From Oscillospiraceae bacterium (GTDB lineage Bacteria; Bacillota; Clostridia; Oscillospirales; Oscillospiraceae): DNA of 32,925 bases. Numbering within the stretch: position 1 is the stretch's first letter; each line of letters starts with the position of its first letter. The DNA lies in the NCBI GenBank assembly GCA_017619535.1, contig JAFZSD010000083.1:1-32925 (forward strand), in the 5' to 3' direction. Below the pieces are notes generated by a model that made no database searches, was not told the DNA's origin, and saw only the letters and a list, made by a program, of their open reading frames with translations. Positions 7,917 to 17,353 of this stretch are shown piece after piece. The translations under genes were made by a program, and so were the position numbers.

Positions 7917-8384
7917 TCAGAAGTACAGACCGTTGTTCTCAAGCTCGTCGATCAGGTCGCCCATAAGATCGACGTTGTAGGGTGTGATTATGTAGGTGTT
8001 GACAGCTACCTTCTTTATCTTGCCCTCCTGGGCGTACGCAACGCCGCTGAGGAAGTCGATGAGACGGCGGGCGATATCCTTGTTGGTCTGTTCGAGATTC
8101 AGAACGACGGTGCGCTTCTCGCGGAGGTGGTCCGCGATCTCCGCGGCGTTCTCAAAACGTTCGGGCTTGACCAGCACGACCTTGAGCTGTGTCGTCGCAT
8201 GGATATTGACGACTTTATTGCTGTCGCGCTTCTCCTCGAAGCCTGCGTAGGTGTTGCGGGCCTGAGCCGGAGTCTTGGGCGTGATCGGGAGCTGTTCGGG
8301 CTCTTTGGCCGTGAAGCCCTCGAACTCCTCCTCGTCGTCGTCATAGGGGCGGGTGAGTTTTTTTATTTCGTCAAATAGTCCCAT
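7917..8384 (-). CDS. sepF: Cell division protein SepF
   Basis: SepF is a membrane-associated, FtsZ-binding protein that forms rings and helps assemble the septum. The 155-residue product has the N-terminal amphipathic start MGLFDEIKKL (membrane anchor), an acidic linker and the C-terminal SepF domain. Conserved stretches include RTVVLNLEQTNKDIARRLID and FLSGVAYAQEGKIKKV. The ATG has a strong AGGAGGACCTCGC binding site. It is first in the sepF-divIVA segment and has its own promoter and a leader hairpin. Identification is secure. Confidence 0.96.
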   Translation of the reverse strand: MGLFDEIKKLTRPYDDDEEEFEGFTAKEPEQLPITPKTPAQARNTYAGFEEKRDSNKVVNIHATTQLKVVLVKPERFENAAEIADHLREKRTVVLNLEQTNKDIARRLIDFLSGVAYAQEGKIKKVAVNTYIITPYNVDLMGDLIDELENNGLYF

Positions 8385-8420
8385 TGCGAGGTCCTCCTGT
8401 CAAAGTATGAACGATATAAA

Positions 8421-8450
8421 CCCTGACGGCAGAAAGGAACTGCCGGAGGG
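8421..8450 (-). promoter_or_regulatory. Hairpin in the sepF leader
   Basis: CCCT/CGGCAG on one side pairs with CTGCCG/AGGG on the other, with a 7-base loop, between the sepF promoter and its ribosome binding site. On the minus strand it is followed by TTTATAT. It could act as an attenuator or stabilise the mRNA; its role is unproven. Confidence 0.45.
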
Positions 8451-8468
8451 CAAAATTACCATGCATAC

Positions 8469-8497
8469 ATTATCTTATTAATTCATCATTATGTCAA
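8469..8497 (-). promoter_or_regulatory. Sigma-A-type promoter of sepF
   Basis: A perfect TTGACA (8497-8492) is separated by 17 bases from GATAAT (8474-8469, five of six consensus bases) in an AT-rich stretch upstream of sepF. Confidence 0.85.
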
Positions 8498-8510
8498 CAT
8501 CAAGCTTGTC

Positions 8511-8539
8511 CAAAAACCGAAAAAACGGTACAATTTCGG
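8511..8539 (-). terminator. Probable terminator after the HlyD-like gene
   Basis: On the minus strand CCGAAA pairs with TTTCGG (8534-8539 with 8517-8522) and is followed by TTTTTGG. It lies just past the HlyD-like stop and upstream of the sepF promoter. The stem is short. Confidence 0.5.
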
Positions 8540-8551
8540 CCCGTCGCCGCG

Positions 8552-9706
8552 TTACTGGACTACTTTCCCGTCAAACAGCCCACGGGCGCTCACGATTACG
8601 GAGGCGTTGGCCGCAAGGGTGCCGTTTTCCGCCGGCCGGATCAGACAGTACTCCTCGTCGTAATCACTGATGACCTCGATATCCGTGCGCATCGCCTGGT
8701 AGCCGGCAAGGATATAGATATACGTGCCGTCGTCATCGTGGACGGCTTCTTTCGGGACCAGCAGGCCGCTCTCCTGCGCGAACACTATATCCGCTGTGAG
8801 ACGGCGGAGCCCGGAGGCTTTTTCGAGATCGCGGTCGGAGGAGAACACGACGAGCCGCATGCCGTTTGCGGCTTCGCTCACGGAAACGACGTCCATGGTC
8901 AGATCCGCGCTGAAGGTCTTGTTGAACTTGACGAGTGCCGTTCCGCCGGGAGAGAGACGCTGCGCGTCGGCGGAATTCATACGCGAGGCGAAATACCAGG
9001 TAGTGCCTGAGATCAGTTTTCCGAAGGCGCCCTGCGGGATTTCGGGACCGGAAAACAGGTCTTCGAGGTCTGACGGCTGAAGGCCTTCGAGATCGGAGGG
9101 AGCGATCCTCTCATAACCGTCAACAGCGGAGGAGAACGTCCCGCTTGAGAACACGCGGACGTCGTCCGCGTCCGAAGTCTGATCCTGGAGCGTGCGGAGC
9201 TGTTCCGTAAGCGCTGCGAGTTCGGCCTCGGGATTGCCGGAGGTGTTTCTGCTGAAGATGTTGGCGCGCACGTCCATCGCAAGCTGGTCGAGACGCTGCA
9301 GGTCGCGGTCCTCGACCGCCCGGGACAGGGATATGACGCTGGTCATAGCGTCGCCGCGGCCCATGATGGAGTTCTCGATCTGACTGATCTGGAGACGCAG
9401 CGAACGTATCTCATCCGCCAGCGCGAGAGCCTCCTCGCTGCCGTACCGCGTGGCGACGGACTGGCCGTAGGAGACATGTTCGCCGTCCGCCAGGTCCGAG
9501 GCGACATAGCCTTCGGCTGTAAGGACCGACTCGGTGCGGACGGCGTAGCCCACGGCCTCGCAGCTGTCCTCTACGGTACAGGAGACGGCGGGCGCCGTGC
9601 GCAGCGGGTCTGTTCCGGACTGGATGAGGTTCAGGCCAATATAGCATATTATCGCTATGAGAAACAGAACGGAAATGACGATGAGCAGAGTGTTGCTGCG
9701 GCGCAT
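8552..9706 (-). CDS. HlyD-like membrane-anchored protein
   Basis: The 384-residue protein has one N-terminal membrane helix (about residues 7-28, LLIVISVLFLIAIICYIGL) and a large extracytoplasmic part. This includes a biotinyl-lipoyl-like segment (about 60-95), a central helical region rich in Leu and Arg heptads, and a C-terminal beta-rich part. The arrangement recalls HlyD/membrane-fusion adaptors, and similar genes sit next to sepF in related Clostridia, as far as I recall. No ABC or MFS transporter gene lies beside it, so an efflux role is not supported by context. Its position before sepF suggests an envelope or division-linked role, which is inference. AAAGGAGC precedes the ATG. It follows miaA by 78 bases. 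Confidence 0.7.
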   Translation of the reverse strand: MRRSNTLLIVISVLFLIAIICYIGLNLIQSGTDPLRTAPAVSCTVEDSCEAVGYAVRTESVLTAEGYVASDLADGEHVSYGQSVATRYGSEEALALADEIRSLRLQISQIENSIMGRGDAMTSVISLSRAVEDRDLQRLDQLAMDVRANIFSRNTSGNPEAELAALTEQLRTLQDQTSDADDVRVFSSGTFSSAVDGYERIAPSDLEGLQPSDLEDLFSGPEIPQGAFGKLISGTTWYFASRMNSADAQRLSPGGTALVKFNKTFSADLTMDVVSVSEAANGMRLVVFSSDRDLEKASGLRRLTADIVFAQESGLLVPKEAVHDDDGTYIYILAGYQAMRTDIEVISDYDEEYCLIRPAENGTLAANASVIVSARGLFDGKVVQ

Positions 9707-9784: not shown

Positions 9785-10747
9785 TCAGGAGACGGCGGGG
9801 GCATATCCCGCTTCTTTGAGAAATTCCGACGCGTCGGAGATGCCGGCCGGGATATCCGGTCCTTTGTTCCAGAGGATCCAGTGTACGGAAGGGTCGCGGC
9901 GCAGCCAGGAGAGCTGCCGTTTCGCATATCTCCGGGACTCGCGCTTTATCGTTTCGACGGCCTCGTCCAGGGAACAGGCGCCGGAGATATATGAGCAGAG
10001 TTCCTTGTATCCTATGGCCTGCATCGCCGTATGCTCCGCCGTAAGGCCAGAGGCGAGCAGCGAACGCACCTCGTCCTCCAGACCGCGGCTCATCATCGCG
10101 TCCACCCTGGCGTCTATACGGGCGTAAAGGTCGGACCTGTCCGCAAAGGAGAGCGCTATCCTGAAGGCGCGGTAACGCGGCGGGATCTGTCTTGAGAGTT
10201 CGTCGTGTCGGGATATGGCCTCTCCCGTTGAGAGAAGGACTTCAGACGCGCGGACGATGCGCTTCTTGTCGTTGGGGTGAAGGCGGGCGGCGGTCACGGG
10301 ATCGCGCTCCGACAGCTTCCGCAGCATCTCTTCGCCGCCTATACGGTCGTATTCGGCCGAGAGAGCGGCCCTCAGTTCCGGGTCGGGCTGTTCCGCGAAA
10401 TCGCGCCCGGATATGAGAGAGTCGATGTAAAGGCCCGTGCCGCCGACGATGACCGCCTGCTTTCCGCGGGAAAGAACGTCGTCCACGCATGCGGACGCGT
10501 CCGCGACGTAGCGGGCGGCAGAGTACGGACTGAACGGCGAGACACAGCCGATCATATGATGAGGAACGCCGAGAGTCTCGGCTTCGGTCGGCTTTGCAGT
10601 GCCTATGTCCATGTTTTCATATATCTGCATCGAGTCGGCGGATATGACCTCGCCGCCGAGCTTTTTCGCCAGCGCGGCGCCAAGGGAGGTCTTTCCCGTG
10701 GCGGTCGGGCCGGTTACGACGATGACGTCCCGCTCCAGGGCGGACAC
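9785..10747 (-). CDS. miaA: tRNA dimethylallyltransferase
   Basis: MiaA adds a dimethylallyl group to A37 of tRNAs that read codons starting with U. The 320-residue protein has the P-loop GPTATGKTS near the N-terminus, then SADSMQIYENMDIGTAKP and VGGTGLYIDSLI, all diagnostic. MiaB, encoded nearby on the other strand, methylthiolates the same base. The start is uncertain. The given start is a GTG at 10747, but the only good binding site (AGGAGG, 10752-10747) runs into it. A CTG three codons further in (10738) would have an ideal 8-base spacing. The gene starts four bases past the mutL stop, so coupled translation is likely. Confidence 0.95.
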   Translation of the reverse strand: MSALERDVIVVTGPTATGKTSLGAALAKKLGGEVISADSMQIYENMDIGTAKPTEAETLGVPHHMIGCVSPFSPYSAARYVADASACVDDVLSRGKQAVIVGGTGLYIDSLISGRDFAEQPDPELRAALSAEYDRIGGEEMLRKLSERDPVTAARLHPNDKKRIVRASEVLLSTGEAISRHDELSRQIPPRYRAFRIALSFADRSDLYARIDARVDAMMSRGLEDEVRSLLASGLTAEHTAMQAIGYKELCSYISGACSLDEAVETIKRESRRYAKRQLSWLRRDPSVHWILWNKGPDIPAGISDASEFLKEAGYAPAVS

Positions 10748-10751
10748 CTCC

Positions 10752-12659
10752 TCAGGTTCGTTTGAAAGTCCTGTCGAGCGCAGAATGCGTGAGCTCTACG
10801 GCTACGGGCCGGCCGTGGGGACAGTAGCGGATCTCGCCCGAGAGGACGCGCTCCGCAAGTTCGGAGAGCTCCTCCGGTTCGCTTCGCCTTCCCGCCTTGA
10901 TCGCGGCCTTGCAGGCGACGCTGTGGAGTATCTCGTCGCGCCGGCGGGACGGATCGGCGGTGCCGCCGGATCTGAGCGCGGCGCAGGATTCGCCGAGCAG
11001 CGCCTCCACGTCAGACTCATCGATATACGACGGTATGCTGCGGACTGCGACGGAGGAATCCCCGAGAAGCTCGAGAGATATGCCGAACGTTTCGAACACG
11101 GACGCGTTCTCAGCAAGGAGGGCCGCGTCTTCGGGACCGGGTGAGAAAATGACGGGTGTCAGCAGCTGTTCGACCATGGTCTCGCGCTGCTGGGAACGGA
11201 GCCGGTCGAAACAGACCCTTTCATGCGCGGCGTGTTTGTCGATGAGCCAGAGGCTGTCGCCGGATTCGACGATTATATACGTATCGAGGGCCTCGCCTAT
11301 GAGCCGGGCGCCTGCCGGCGCCTTCGCGGTCTTTGCAGGCCTCTGGGTATCCGGAGCGACGGCCGGGATATCCGGCATATCCAATTCTGTCTGACCGGGG
11401 CGGTACGTACCGCCGGAGACCGGCGACTGCCTGCCGCGTTTCTGAGGCGCTGCGGACCTGCCGGAGACGAAGCTGTTTATGAATTCCTCCGAGGACATCT
11501 CTTTGAAAGACGCTTTCGGTATCTTTACCGAGGCCTCGTGAGGCGGAGCCGCGTACTGCCGGCCGGCGGGGCGCGGAGAAGCTGCGCCTTTTCCTTCCGC
11601 GGCGTCCGGAGGACCGCCGAGCACTTTCATGGTGGACGGCGACACGGCGACGTCTGCGTTCTGGGCCGGACCGCGGTTCTCAAGAGCGCCGAGAGCGGCG
11701 TAGTAAACGCCGTCGAACACCTGACGCTCGTTCAGGAATTTGACCTCGGTCTTTGCGGGATGGACGTTTACGTCCACCGCGGATGGAGAGAGAGATATGT
11801 ACAGGACGCACTGCGGATAGCGGCCGGTGAACAGGGTGTTTCTGTAAGCCTGTTCCAGCGCCGCCTGCAGGGTCTTGGATTTTACGAAACGTCCGTTGAC
11901 GAAAAAGTACTGGCCGGTGCGGTTGCCTTTCGCAGCCGCCGGAGTCGAGACATAGCCGGTGACCGCGACGTCTCCGTCGCTGGTCCCGGCTTCAAGCATG
12001 CCGGCGGCAAAGTCTCTGCCGAAGAGAGTGTATACGCAGGAATCGACGCGGCCGTCGCCTGGAGTGTGGAATTCCTCGGCGCCGTCGCGAATATACCGGA
12101 CGGACACCTCAGGATGGGACAGCGCGCAGCGGAGCGCTGCGGCTGCGACGCCGGAGCTTTCCGCCCGGTCGGTCTTCATGAATTTGAGGCGTGCCGGAGT
12201 GTTGTAGAACAGATCGCGCACGATTATGGTCGTGCCGTCCGGGCAGCCTGCAGGGTTCTTCGAGGTGACGGCGCCGCCTTCGAGAGCAAGACGCAGACCT
12301 TCGGCGCAGCCGCGTTCACGGGTGACGAGCTCCACGCGGGAGACGGAGGCGATGGCGGCCAGGGCTTCGCCGCGGAAGCCGAGCGTGCCGATGGCCTCGA
12401 GACCGCGCTCGTCGCGAAGCTTGCTCGTCGCGTGACGGAGGAAGGCGGTCTCGGCTTCGTCGGCCGGGATACCGCAGCCGTTGTCGCTGACGCGTATGAA
12501 CGTCATGCCCCCGCCTTTGATCTCGACGGTGACGTCGTTCGCGCCGGCGTCTATGGAGTTTTCGATGAGTTCCTTGACCACCGATGCCGGACGCTCCACA
12601 ACCTCGCCTGCGGCGATGAGGTCGGCAACGTGAGGGTCGAGCTGGATAATCTTTGCCAT
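10752..12659 (-). CDS. mutL: DNA mismatch repair protein MutL
   Basis: MutL couples mismatch recognition by MutS to strand incision. The N-terminal GHKL ATPase shows ELIENSIDAGA, SDNGCGIP and GFRGEALAAIASV. A variable Pro-rich linker (about residues 340-440) leads to the C-terminal dimerisation and endonuclease domain. The endonuclease motif reads DKHAAHERVCFD (474-485) and a CPHGRP zinc-site motif is at 613-618, so it is the nicking type of MutL found outside gamma-proteobacteria. The final acidic residue of the first motif is Asp instead of the usual Glu. AAAGGAG precedes the ATG. mutS is not in the window. It is followed by miaA, a common order. Confidence 0.97.
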   Translation of the reverse strand: MAKIIQLDPHVADLIAAGEVVERPASVVKELIENSIDAGANDVTVEIKGGGMTFIRVSDNGCGIPADEAETAFLRHATSKLRDERGLEAIGTLGFRGEALAAIASVSRVELVTRERGCAEGLRLALEGGAVTSKNPAGCPDGTTIIVRDLFYNTPARLKFMKTDRAESSGVAAAALRCALSHPEVSVRYIRDGAEEFHTPGDGRVDSCVYTLFGRDFAAGMLEAGTSDGDVAVTGYVSTPAAAKGNRTGQYFFVNGRFVKSKTLQAALEQAYRNTLFTGRYPQCVLYISLSPSAVDVNVHPAKTEVKFLNERQVFDGVYYAALGALENRGPAQNADVAVSPSTMKVLGGPPDAAEGKGAASPRPAGRQYAAPPHEASVKIPKASFKEMSSEEFINSFVSGRSAAPQKRGRQSPVSGGTYRPGQTELDMPDIPAVAPDTQRPAKTAKAPAGARLIGEALDTYIIVESGDSLWLIDKHAAHERVCFDRLRSQQRETMVEQLLTPVIFSPGPEDAALLAENASVFETFGISLELLGDSSVAVRSIPSYIDESDVEALLGESCAALRSGGTADPSRRRDEILHSVACKAAIKAGRRSEPEELSELAERVLSGEIRYCPHGRPVAVELTHSALDRTFKRT

Positions 12660-12673
12660 ACCGGCTCCTTTGC

Positions 12674-13738
12674 TTATCTGTATTCCCTTGGAAGTCCTTT
12701 GACGTTTACGGGATCGACGTCCAGTATCGCGATGTCGCCGACGGTGCAGTCGATCTTGGTGACGTCTATGAGCGTGTGCATCATGCCGACGCTTCCGATG
12801 ACGCGGGCCCGCTGCCCGTTTACTCTTGCGTAGAGCCTGCGGCGGCCGGCGAACACCCGCTCGAACAGGTTGAGCTCGGAACTGTGCCTGTCCACGCCGA
12901 AGCCGTGGTAGTAGCCCACGGAGAGGACCGCGATCTTTGTGGGTTTTTTGATAGTGACGGCATGCTCCGCTCCGATGCGGTGGCCCTTGCTGAACCAGGC
13001 GACTTCCTCAAGTCCGGCTTCGATATAGCCGACTTTGGTGAGCCCGGGGATCTTCTTCCCCGGGATGCGGCCGCAGATGGCCGTGCCGACGCGCACCGCG
13101 TCCATGTGGCCGAAGTCATACCTGAACAGAGCAGCGGAGTCGCAGGCGTGGGCGAGACCCGTCTCGTATCCGGCGTCGTTGAGTTTGTCCAGCACCTGAT
13201 CGAACAGATCGAGCTGGGCGAGAGTCAGCTTCTGGCTGCGGTCCGAAGCGGAGAACGTGGTAAATATGCCGACAACGGCCAGGCTTGACATGTACTTGTA
13301 GATGGCGGCGACCTTATCGAGCTCCGTCGGGGAGAAACCGTACCGGCCGAGCCCCGTGTCGATCTTTATCTGGATCTCCGCGACGGTCTTTCGCGCCTCG
13401 GCGATGCCGTTTATCGCGACTGCGGCGTCGTATGAACCGGCGGTGCAGATGACGCCGAGGTCGATGAGCTCGGCGAGCTCGTCCGGGTCGGCAGTGGAAC
13501 GGAGCATCATGATGCGCTGCTCCGTGAAGTCGTTCTTTCGGAGGAACGCCGCGTCCTTCGGGTCTGAGACTGCAAAATTGCGTATGCCCTCGTCGCGGAG
13601 GAGCTGCGCCGTCTCCAGAAGACCCATGCCGTACGCGTTCGCGCTGAGGTCGGCGTATATGGCCGCGCCATCCGCGCGCTCCTTGATGGCGCGGATGTTG
13701 CTGCGCATCGCACGGCGGTCTATCACGAGATGTTTCAT
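12674..13738 (-). CDS. Alanine racemase-like protein lacking both catalytic residues
   Basis: The 354-residue protein aligns along its length with fold-type III alanine racemases: an N-terminal TIM barrel (about 1-225) and a C-terminal beta domain. Key positions differ. The PLP lysine in the usual VVKANAYGHG motif is Ser32 (DLSANAYGMG). The catalytic tyrosine of the VSYG motif is Ala257 (RIGAEH). GYxDG reads GYYHG. Other cofactor residues persist, such as Arg132 in KIDTGLGRYGF and Arg216 in AVRVGT. A standard racemase reaction is therefore not expected. It might be a pseudoenzyme, bind PLP non-covalently or do other chemistry. A GGAGGT site precedes the ATG. It is first in an operon with mutL, 14 bases away. 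Confidence 0.85.
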   Translation of the reverse strand: MKHLVIDRRAMRSNIRAIKERADGAAIYADLSANAYGMGLLETAQLLRDEGIRNFAVSDPKDAAFLRKNDFTEQRIMMLRSTADPDELAELIDLGVICTAGSYDAAVAINGIAEARKTVAEIQIKIDTGLGRYGFSPTELDKVAAIYKYMSSLAVVGIFTTFSASDRSQKLTLAQLDLFDQVLDKLNDAGYETGLAHACDSAALFRYDFGHMDAVRVGTAICGRIPGKKIPGLTKVGYIEAGLEEVAWFSKGHRIGAEHAVTIKKPTKIAVLSVGYYHGFGVDRHSSELNLFERVFAGRRRLYARVNGQRARVIGSVGMMHTLIDVTKIDCTVGDIAILDVDPVNVKGLPREYR

Positions 13739-13789
13739 TTTTCAGACCTCCTGCCGGTTTTTCGTCAGATATACATCCGGTATCAAATC

Positions 13790-13795
13790 ATTATA
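13790..13795 (-). promoter_or_regulatory. Likely -10 box for the alr-like/mutL/miaA operon
   Basis: A perfect TATAAT on the minus strand lies about 50 bases before the start codon. No good -35 box is seen at 16-18 bases, so the promoter may need an activator or use other contacts. It is only 12 bases from the divergent miaB promoter. Confidence 0.55.
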
Positions 13796-13868: not shown

Positions 13869-15275
13869 TTGAGCATGCGAAAAGAGATACCGGAAGCGGA
13901 GCTCGCCCGCCAGAAAGAGATCATGGAGCGGGTGCGGTCGGTGACGGAATCGTCGCCCAGACCGATGCTGGCGTTCGTGGACACCTACGGCTGCCAGCAG
14001 AACGAGTCCGACAGCGAAAAGCTCCGCGGGATGCTTTCGGAGATGGGTTACGGCTTTACCCGGGACGAGTCCGAGGCGGACGTCGTCGTTATAAACACCT
14101 GCGCCGTCAGGGAGCATGCGGAGCAGAGGATACTCGGGAACGTGGGCGCCCTTTCCCACACAAAGCGCGCCAACAGGGAACAGATAATCGCGATGTGCGG
14201 CTGCATGGTGCAGGAACCGGGCATGGCGGAAAGGATAAAGCGATCATACCCGTACGTGGACCTGGTCTTCGGCCCCCATGTGGTGTGGCGGTTCCCGGAA
14301 TACCTGGAGAGGCTCCTGCAGAAAAGAAAACGTATATTCGACACGACAGACGACGGAGGGGCCATAGCGGAGGGGCTGCCCGTCCTGCGGGACGGCAGCG
14401 TCAAGGCCTGGCTCTCGATCATGTACGGCTGCAATTATTTCTGCTCCTACTGCATCGTCCCGTACGTACGCGGCCGCGAACGGAGCCGCAGACCGGAAGA
14501 CGTGCTCCGGGAGGCCCGGAGCCTCGTGGAGGCCGGGTATAAGGACATAACCCTCCTTGGACAGAACGTCAACTCCTACGGGAAAGACCTGGATGACGGA
14601 GTGGATTTCGCGGACATCATCCGCATGGTGAACGGCATCCCGGGGGATTTCCTCATCAGATTCATGACCAGCCATCCGAAGGACGCGGGAGAACGCCTTT
14701 TCGCGGCGATGGCGGAGTGCGAAAAGGCCGCGCACCACATACATCTGCCGTTCCAGGCGGGCAGCGACAGGATCCTGTCCGCTATGAACAGGCGCTATAC
14801 GAAATCGGATTACCTCGAAAAGGTCAGGCTCGCCCGGAGCTACATGCCCGACGTCGTGCTGACCAGCGACGTCATAGTCGGGTTCCCCGGCGAGACGGAG
14901 GAGGATTTCAGGGAGACGATGGACGTCCTCGAACAGGTCAGGTTCGACGCCCTGTTCACGTTCATATACTCGAAACGTCTCGGAACGCCGGCGGCGGAAC
15001 TCGCCGACGGCACGCCGAGGGAAGTCAAACAGGAAAGGTTCGAGCGGCTTCTGGATCTGCAGAACAGGATATCCGGCGAGAAGCACGCGGAATACGTCGG
15101 CAGAACGGTCCGGGTGCTCGTGGACGCCGAGTCGGCGGACGAGCGGGCTGATATGCTGGGCCGCACGAACGGCGGCCGGCTGGTGCATATAACAGGAAAG
15201 GCAGAGCCCGGAAGCTTTGCGGAAGTCGAGATAACTGACAGCAACACATGGGCGCTCTACGGTCACATCGTCTGA
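13869..15275 (+). CDS. miaB: tRNA-2-methylthio-N6-dimethylallyladenosine synthase
   Basis: MiaB is a radical-SAM methylthiotransferase that adds a methylthio group to i6A37 of tRNA, acting on the product of MiaA. The order of domains is the UPF0004 domain (VDTYGCQQNESD, Cys42), the radical-SAM core with the CxxxCxxC cluster (CNYFCSYC) followed by RGRERSR, and a C-terminal TRAM domain. The length of 468 residues is normal. Translation can start at TTG 13869, six bases after GGGAGA, or at the ATG six bases later; spacing favours the TTG. It is the first gene of an operon with the RACo-like and DUF2284 genes, and is divergent from the alr-like/mutL/miaA operon. Confidence 0.96.
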   Translation: MSMRKEIPEAELARQKEIMERVRSVTESSPRPMLAFVDTYGCQQNESDSEKLRGMLSEMGYGFTRDESEADVVVINTCAVREHAEQRILGNVGALSHTKRANREQIIAMCGCMVQEPGMAERIKRSYPYVDLVFGPHVVWRFPEYLERLLQKRKRIFDTTDDGGAIAEGLPVLRDGSVKAWLSIMYGCNYFCSYCIVPYVRGRERSRRPEDVLREARSLVEAGYKDITLLGQNVNSYGKDLDDGVDFADIIRMVNGIPGDFLIRFMTSHPKDAGERLFAAMAECEKAAHHIHLPFQAGSDRILSAMNRRYTKSDYLEKVRLARSYMPDVVLTSDVIVGFPGETEEDFRETMDVLEQVRFDALFTFIYSKRLGTPAAELADGTPREVKQERFERLLDLQNRISGEKHAEYVGRTVRVLVDAESADERADMLGRTNGGRLVHITGKAEPGSFAEVEITDSNTWALYGHIV

Positions 15276-15299: not shown

Positions 15300-16814
15300 T
15301 TGGCAACGGTAAGGATATACAGAGACGGAGAGCTCCTGCGGGAGACGCAGGCGGATATCGGCGCGACGGTCTATGCCGCGGTCACGGGGGCGGGCGTGTA
15401 TCTGGACGCGCCCTGCGCAGGCACGGGCCGGTGCGGCAAGTGTCTCGTAAGGCTCTCGCCTGACGGCGAAGAGGTAAAGGCGTGTACGACCGAGATCAGC
15501 GGGGACACGGACGTGTATCTGCCCGGCAACGGCGAGATGAAGATCGCCGGCAGCGGCGCGGAAGCGACGGGCCACAGCGGGCCCTACGCTGCGGCGGTGG
15601 ATATAGGCACCACGACGGTCGTCGCGTATATCGTCGACATCCCATCCGGCAGGCCGGTGTCCACGGCGGCCGGAGTGAACGCCCAGCGCACCTACGGCGC
15701 CGACGTCATCAGCCGAATAGTATGCTGCGACAGGGAAGGCCATGAAAAGCTGACCGCGCTCATCCGCGGGCAGATAAGGGATCTGATCGCGCAGGCGGCT
15801 GAAAAAGCCGGCATTGCGTCCGCCGACGTAACGTATCTGTCCATCGCCGGCAATACGGTCATGCTGCACCTGTATAACGGGGATTCTCCCGTGGGCATAG
15901 GCCGCGTTCCCTTCACCCCCGTGAGCCTTTACGGGACCGAGGCCGCAGCCGGGCCCGATCTCGGCATAGCGCCGGGCGCGCCCGAGTATCTTGCGCCCTG
16001 CATACATTCCTATGTGGGCGGCGATATCACCGCGGGCATCCTGGCTTCCGGATTCTCCGGGCTGGAAGGGACATGGCTGTTCATCGACGTAGGCACCAAC
16101 GGCGAGATGGCTCTCCGCAGCGGCGGCAGGATGTTCTGCTGCGCCACGGCCGCGGGGCCGGCCTTCGAGGGCGCGGAGATATCCTGCGGGATGGCGGCGG
16201 TAGAAGGCGCCGTAAACTATATCAGATTCGAGGACGGATGCCTGAAATACGACGTCGTGGGCGGCGGTGAGCCGCGCGGGATATGCGGCTCGGGCCTTCT
16301 GGACGCGCTTGCCCTGCTCCTGGACAACGGAGCGGTGGACGCGGGCGGTATGCTCCTGCCTCCCGACGAGGTCGAGGGCCCGATCGCTCAGTATATAGAC
16401 GAAGACGACGACGGAGTGATATTCCGCATAAGCGGAGACGTCTGCGTCTCGGCGACAGATGTGCGCAAGCTGCAGCTCGCCAAGGCGGCGATCGCCGCCG
16501 GCATACAGACGCTGCTTTCCAAAGCGGGCGTTTCCTCCGCTCAGGGGCTGCTGCTGGCCGGCGGTTTCGGCAGCTATCTGGATCCCCGTTCGGCGGCCCG
16601 CATCGGGCTTTTCCCCGAAGACCTTCTCCCGAACGTGCGCGCTCTCGGAAACACAGCGGGTGCAGGCGCGGTAATCGCGGCGTGTTCTTCAGCGGCGAGA
16701 GCCGGCATGGAAAAGATAAGGGAAGAATGCGAATACGTCGAGCTTTCGACGGACAGGACCTTTAATGATCAGTTCGTCATGCAGATGATGTTCGAGGAGG
16801 ATATGGACATATGA
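15300..16814 (+). CDS. RACo-like [2Fe-2S] ferredoxin / ASKHA-domain protein (DUF4445 family)
   Basis: The 504-residue protein starts with a plant-type [2Fe-2S] ferredoxin domain. Its cysteines 39, 45, 48 and 62 have the pattern C-x5-C-x2-C-x13-C. A short linker and an actin-like ATPase part follow, with AAVDIGTTTVVAYIVD (about 98-113) and FIDVGTNGEM. This is the layout of RACo, the reductive activator of corrinoid/iron-sulfur proteins, which uses ATP to return inactive Co(II) to Co(I). No corrinoid protein or methyltransferase is encoded nearby, so the partner is unknown. It starts at TTG 15300, with AAGGGAA upstream, 24 bases after miaB. Its stop overlaps the next start by four bases (ATGA). 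The length is somewhat short for the family. Confidence 0.88.
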   Translation: MATVRIYRDGELLRETQADIGATVYAAVTGAGVYLDAPCAGTGRCGKCLVRLSPDGEEVKACTTEISGDTDVYLPGNGEMKIAGSGAEATGHSGPYAAAVDIGTTTVVAYIVDIPSGRPVSTAAGVNAQRTYGADVISRIVCCDREGHEKLTALIRGQIRDLIAQAAEKAGIASADVTYLSIAGNTVMLHLYNGDSPVGIGRVPFTPVSLYGTEAAAGPDLGIAPGAPEYLAPCIHSYVGGDITAGILASGFSGLEGTWLFIDVGTNGEMALRSGGRMFCCATAAGPAFEGAEISCGMAAVEGAVNYIRFEDGCLKYDVVGGGEPRGICGSGLLDALALLLDNGAVDAGGMLLPPDEVEGPIAQYIDEDDDGVIFRISGDVCVSATDVRKLQLAKAAIAAGIQTLLSKAGVSSAQGLLLAGGFGSYLDPRSAARIGLFPEDLLPNVRALGNTAGAGAVIAACSSAARAGMEKIREECEYVELSTDRTFNDQFVMQMMFEEDMDI

Positions 16815-17353
16815 CCCCGGATTATGAAGCTCTTATCGCCCTTGCAAAGGAATGTGGCTTCGACTGCGCCGCGCCGTTATACACGAAGGATCTCAAGTTC
16901 CGGCCGGAGGTGCGCGACATGTGCGCCGTCAACACCTGCGGCAGATACAACGCGTCGTGGTCCTGTCCGCCGGCGTGCGGAACGCTGGAGGAACTGTCGG
17001 CCAGAGCAGCCGGATACACGGAAGGGATACTCGTACAGACGGTAGGACAGCTTGAGGACAGTTTCGACTGGGAAGGCATCCAGGACGCGGCGGCCCGCCA
17101 GCGCGACAGTTTCATGAAGATGTGGGATCTGCTCGAAGAACAGTATCCCGGCCTCATGCCCATGGGCATGGGTTCGTGCACTCTGTGCGAGAAATGTTCG
17201 TATCCGGACGCGCCGTGCCGGTTCCCGAAACGCATGACGTCATCAATGGAAGCCTGCGGCCTCGTCGTCAGCGAGGTGTGCTCCAGGTGCGGAGTTCCGT
17301 ACAACCACGGCCCGAACACCATAGCCTACACGGGCTGTTTCCTGCTCGTGTGA
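16811..17353 (+). CDS. DUF2284 cysteine-rich, probable metal-binding protein
   Basis: This 180-residue protein matches the DUF2284 pattern: CAVNTCGRYNASWSCPPACG near residues 38-57, GSCTLCEKC at about 117-125, then a Cys-containing PDAPC segment and EVCSRCGVP near the end. The many paired cysteines suggest iron-sulfur or zinc binding. No membrane segment or signal peptide is seen. Its ATG overlaps the stop of the RACo-like gene (ATGA), with GAGGAGG upstream, so the two are translationally coupled. From memory, DUF2284 genes are often found near corrinoid-dependent methyltransferase genes, which fits the RACo-like neighbour. No precise biochemical function is known to me. Confidence 0.88.
   Translation: MTPDYEALIALAKECGFDCAAPLYTKDLKFRPEVRDMCAVNTCGRYNASWSCPPACGTLEELSARAAGYTEGILVQTVGQLEDSFDWEGIQDAAARQRDSFMKMWDLLEEQYPGLMPMGMGSCTLCEKCSYPDAPCRFPKRMTSSMEACGLVVSEVCSRCGVPYNHGPNTIAYTGCFLLV

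Follow-up and report, generated by a model that had tools for sequence, protein, structure and literature searches.

The alr' locus

The window, that is, the whole stretch of 32,925 nucleotides of contig JAFZSD010000083.1 from an Oscillospiraceae bacterium, was analysed computationally. Its minus strand carries a gene, here called alr', for a protein with the fold of alanine racemase (Alr) that is devoid of the Schiff-base lysine (Table 1). The reading frame starts with an ATG at 13738 and extends over 354 codons with zero internal stops. An intact frame had been claimed in the original prediction, which gave no strand, as had the position of the gene at the head of a mutL operon, and both statements hold.

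Table 1. Features of the alr' locus (window coordinates; residue numbers of canonical Alr follow the Geobacillus enzyme)
Feature	Position	Strand	Basis
alr', 354-aa alanine-racemase-fold protein without Schiff-base lysine (pseudo-racemase)	12674..13738	-	Pfam, AlphaFold2 model and fold matches
Ser32 codon, at the PLP lysine position (K39)	13643..13645	-	alignment
Thr161 codon, replaces active-site His166	13256..13258	-	alignment
Asp200 codon, replaces active-site Asn203	13139..13141	-	alignment
Ala257 codon, replaces second catalytic base Tyr265	12968..12970	-	alignment
Strong Shine-Dalgarno AGGAGG of alr'	13747..13752	-	read directly
TATAAT preceded by TG, candidate extended -10 element of the alr' operon	13790..13795	-	read directly; putative, absent from the scanner's list
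mutL, next operon gene, start 14 nt past the alr' stop	10752..12659	-	
miaA, conserved downstream neighbour	9785..10747	-	
HlyD_2-type membrane protein gene, conserved downstream neighbour	8552..9706	-	
sepF, conserved neighbour	7917..8384	-	
miaB, divergent neighbour, found in both subclades of the lysine-less family	13869..15275	+	

The lysine-less relatives of the window protein described below fall into two subclades, the S-clade and the T-clade. The gene order of the S-clade is divergent miaB / alr' - mutL - miaA - hlyD-like - (yggS) - sepF - divIVA-like, and T-clade copies often retain the divergent miaB. The yggS/ylmE-type gene found in relatives between the hlyD-like gene and sepF is missing from that place in the window (8384-8552). 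Downstream of miaB (15300-17353, plus strand) lie genes for a 504-aa protein, which to judge from its sequence may be 2Fe-2S/ASKHA activator-like, and for a 180-aa cysteine-rich protein, both syntenic in many relatives. The gene neighbourhood indicates no partner for the alr' protein.

Fold and active site of the window protein

In Pfam, the window protein matches Ala_racemase_N with 157 bits and Ala_racemase_C with 43 bits, while its score of 153.3 bits against the NCBIfam alanine racemase model TIGR00492 falls below the cut-off of 168. The AlphaFold2 model (42 sequences; pLDDT 92, pTM 0.87, with a weak loop at ~286-299) predicts both the N-terminal alpha/beta barrel and the C-terminal beta domain of Alr. 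The best solved matches in Foldseek are VanT, at the top, and alanine racemases (TM about 0.8-0.88), and VIA-align comparisons with solved racemases yielded Z values of 32-37 across ~330 residues at an rmsd of about 2-3. The C-terminal tail has been rebuilt; it is without the SYE motif and possesses a conserved DVDPVNVKG instead.

Alignment with canonical Alr places Ser32 opposite K39 and Ala257 opposite Y265, so that the two substitutions on which the original prediction was founded are correctly assigned. Further active-site losses had been overlooked, namely H166 to Thr161, N203 to Asp200 and D313 to Met320, of which D313 is likewise missing from lysine-keeping relatives. The change of GYxDG to GYYHG, by contrast, is real and yet says little about inactivation, because relatives that keep the lysine also show GWYHG or GYYNG; as proof of a dead enzyme it is ruled out. 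Similarly, the arginines near PLP reported to persist are indeed kept in the window protein (R132 and R216, equivalent to R136 and R219), but one or the other is gone in several relatives. K125 (the K129 equivalent) and S201 are also still present. A sister assembly with 97% identity carries identical substitutions which, together with the absence of the lysine from all copies of the lysine-less family, excludes sequencing error or chance.

The chemistry of Alr depends on an aldimine at K39 and on Tyr265 from across the dimer interface. Because both residues are gone, we infer that the window protein would not racemise by the PLP two-base mechanism and would form no Schiff base with PLP; it would act by binding. 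With R132, R216, S201 and K125 kept, non-covalent binding of PLP or of an amino acid is possible, the old PLP pocket having been assessed here from the alignment rather than from geometry.

A lysine-less family in Oscillospiraceae

Relatives were surveyed among close relatives, a genome collection, 400 genomes of the family and then the order and class. These searches revealed a racemase-like family that is separate from canonical Alr, of which 99 distinct copies were read with their flanks, 39 with the lysine (lysine form) and 60 without. K39 and Y265 are both present in 39/39 copies of the lysine form. Homologues with Ser at this position, for which a search was suggested in the original prediction, do occur: K39 is replaced by Ser, Thr, Ala or Asn in 60/60 lysine-less copies from dozens of genera, and only five of the 60 retain Tyr265. 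These 60 copies all derive from the window's family, which is Oscillospiraceae according to the named records, and in the wider order and class scans every copy from outside that family has the lysine, save for one Ala in a second family (f2, see below).

The erosion is centred on the active site. In the lysine form, 62 columns reach a conservation of at least 85%. For eight of them the value drops below 30% in the copies without the lysine (K39, Y43, H166, N203, Y265, M312 and two loop positions), and active-site residues account for six of the eight (hypergeometric p 1.8e-4). Across each subclade the replacements are for the most part uniform, with Asp200 in 35/36 S-clade copies and, in the T-clade, Gly200 in 23/24, Gln161 in 22/24 and Ala319 in 22/24; R216 and S201 are present in all 24 T-clade copies. 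Several S-clade relatives that share the gene neighbourhood are devoid of equivalents of K129, R136, R219 or Y43. A different lysine in the PLP position would speak for a live enzyme, and in the alignment of the family copies no conserved lysine able to stand in for K39 was found; the only common pocket-linked lysine, K125, is missing from several relatives and throughout the T-clade and was rejected as a shifted PLP lysine. The window protein and the lysine form have several family-specific residues in common that set them apart from canonical Alr (G194, R224, G237, G256, C331 and P343).

Association with FemX

The lysine copies are located directly downstream of a gene for a ~350-aa FemAB (PF02388) protein that is FemX/MurM-like, and the two genes usually overlap or abut. 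These neighbours were identified via PF02388 genome matches at the same coordinates. A femX gene lies directly upstream of 36/39 copies that have the lysine and of 0/60 that do not (Fisher p 7e-24), and FemAB genes occur in 26/26 genomes with the lysine form versus 3/53 lysine-less genomes (p 7e-18), p-values that overstate the case because related genomes are not independent. In the three lysine-less genomes the FemAB genes are situated away from alr'. The window's own genome (an assembly of 1.66 Mb, 79% complete) gave no FemAB match, and alr', flanked by miaB and mutL, has no femX upstream. In the scan of the class Clostridia, every FemX-linked copy read possesses K39 and Y265. The coupling is strong but not absolute, because four lysine-less genomes (L175, L176, L177 and L181) harbour an additional lysine-form copy without adjacent FemX; the two forms can therefore coexist. 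An indirect test lent no support to a link with sporulation: nearly every genome of the family has spoIVA, with or without alr', so that the two do not correlate.

Phylogeny

In the main tree, built with the trait columns removed and f2 left out, the lysine-less copies form a single clade nested inside the lysine form (UFBoot 99, SH-aLRT 94), and the window protein is placed within the FemX-linked subfamily whether or not f2 is included. The family f2 belongs to the same order; its locus has no FemX but still includes several genes typically found downstream in the FemX-racemase locus. Most members of its racemase-like gene (L228-L235) have the lysine, while Tyr265, Asn203 and Met312 are gone, and one (L235) has Ala for the lysine. 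Judged by these residues, the f2 protein is a putative half-way pseudoenzyme.

When f2 is added, S-clade, T-clade and f2 group together (81/92) with the order among the three not resolved, and only 19% of bootstrap trees unite the lysine-less copies of the window's family. A loss of the lysine exactly once, supported by the tree without f2, is undercut by this value, which leaves one or two events in the window's family; the lysine may thus have been lost once or twice there and once more in f2. Owing to its grouping with the lysine-less copies, f2 does not qualify as a clean independent replicate. The tree and the f2 pattern nevertheless imply that separation from FemX and erosion of the active site go together.

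Selection and other racemase-fold genes

Compared with the sister species of 97% identity, alr' has a dN/dS of 0.022, the lowest value among the four genes compared in this pair (miaB 0.034, mutL 0.069, miaA 0.096). The gene is not decaying and is under very strong purifying selection.

A second, intact alr, whose presence the original prediction had proposed to check, is found complete on contig C80 of the same assembly, with the motifs VVKADAYGHG, VSYGR and GYADG and the SYE segment, so that the window gene is not the sole functional alr. The two proteins are 28% identical. A third fold-type III barrel of the assembly is a YggS-like protein (contig C35).

Discussion

The window protein is very probably a functional but catalytically dead descendant of a racemase, a judgement made irrespective of its specific role, and the origin of the alr' family as a pseudoenzyme branch of the racemase family is well supported. 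The original proposal of a probable pseudoenzyme kept for another role is supported by the separate intact alr, the absence of a replacement lysine, the strong purifying selection and an active-site-centred loss that is fixed across dozens of genera. The missing active-site residues could also be expected of a decaying gene without function or of an assembly error, but this is hardly credible for a gene under the strongest constraint among four neighbours, with intact frames in 60 copies and the same state in independent assemblies; on the last point and the dN/dS, pseudogene and assembly error are ruled out.

We propose that the ancestor was a PLP racemase that worked beside a FemX/MurM-type peptidoglycan aminoacyltransferase and subsequently lost this partner. 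The active site (K39, Y43, H166, N203, Y265, M312) would then have been dismantled and rebuilt with retention of the two-domain fold, and alr', which now lies between the divergent miaB and mutL, would be preserved for a task other than catalysis by strong purifying selection. That this peptidoglycan-linked racemase, parted from FemX, has become an important non-catalytic regulator across Oscillospiraceae, e.g. of Alr or of cell-division or envelope functions encoded around mutL/miaA/sepF, is a possibility that we regard as doubtful in so specific a form.

The most likely of the conceivable roles, if only tentatively so, is that of a subunit with a partner-binding or regulatory function in the metabolism of the cell envelope or of D-Ala; it is favoured by the conserved fold, the family-specific residues common with the lysine form and the rebuilt C-terminal tail. 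A special case would be a regulatory heterodimer with the intact Alr that tunes the D-Ala supply. Since each Alr active site is made up across the dimer interface, pairing with a subunit that has neither K39 nor Y265 would leave a mixed dimer with two inactive sites; antizyme inhibitor and prozymes are regulatory partners of this sort in other enzyme families. The joint loss of both bases of the composite active site, the retained and tightly constrained fold and the canonical Alr matches that co-occur with lysine-less copies in most genomes are consistent with such a heterodimer; the low identity to the genome's own Alr and the tail in which DVDPVNVKG stands in place of SYE argue against it and make it rather unlikely.

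Nearly as likely as the partner-binding role is a remodelled ligand-binding (sensor) protein, in which the old PLP/substrate pocket would have acquired a new small-molecule ligand, conceivably an amino acid or a cell-wall precursor. The pocket replacements are largely fixed by subclade rather than random, which points either to a ligand site that has been remodelled or to a core that has been repacked, and Ser201 is invariant. However, repacking of an empty pocket would yield the same pattern, and the equivalents of Y43, K129, R136 and R219 vary or are missing within the S-clade, so that no obvious common ligand-binding set emerges. Sensing of PLP itself, one of the roles suggested in the original prediction, appears less likely, because in relatives with the same neighbourhood the PLP-contact residue Y43 is gone, as is R219 in some. 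It is improbable, finally, that alr' still encodes an enzyme, one that would catalyse a reaction, with or without PLP, through another set of residues. The versatility of racemase-fold proteins speaks for this reading, as do Arg132, Arg216, Lys125 and Ser201, which the window protein has kept; against it stand the lack of any conserved lysine in exchange for K39 and the additional loss of R136, R219 and Y43 among relatives with the same gene neighbourhood.

Among known systems, bacterial Alr has the same fold and domain order as the window protein (TIGR00492, EC 5.1.1.1; Geobacillus 1sft, C. difficile 4lus), and equivalents of Arg136, Arg219 and Ser204 are present, whereas K39, H166, N203, Y265, C311, D313 and the C-terminal SYE segment are absent. 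The nearest members of the FemX-linked clostridial subfamily (lysine form) are ~38-46% identical to the window protein and have the rebuilt C-terminal tail in common with it, but keep K39/Y43/H166/N203/Y265 directly downstream of femX, while the window protein is without K39, H166, N203 and Y265 and its gene lies by miaB/mutL. The serine racemase VanT (cytoplasmic domain, 4ecl), the top Foldseek match, differs by its membrane domain, catalytic lysine and van gene cluster, none of which accompanies the two racemase domains of the window protein (152.8 bits versus a cut-off of 460). The nearest functional precedent is antizyme inhibitor, the eukaryotic ornithine decarboxylase homologue (PMC3084279), a PLP-barrel protein acting as a non-catalytic regulator; enzyme, kingdom and partner differ, and the likeness would be one of functional analogy only.

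Neither a bacterial racemase pseudoenzyme nor a FemX-racemase operon was found described in the open-access literature searched. Homology-based annotation would label the alr' protein as Alr, a textbook enzyme and drug target; a dead, highly constrained relative of Alr in dozens of genera of common gut bacteria is a warning against such annotation. In addition, the natural series from intact racemase through f2, with the lysine mostly kept and the tyrosine lost, to the remodelled pocket makes the route from enzyme to pseudoenzyme directly testable.

The pairing of a FemX/MurM-like gene with the lysine-form racemase recurs, abutting or overlapping, in many families of Clostridia (e.g. L063:4841-5932 and L072:4832-5941). 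It is probably a peptidoglycan-related operon and may define a cross-bridge pathway. At one locus (L221, G656:C1:799541-800398), two FemX-like frames are found directly upstream, and the racemase frame is seemingly split in two.
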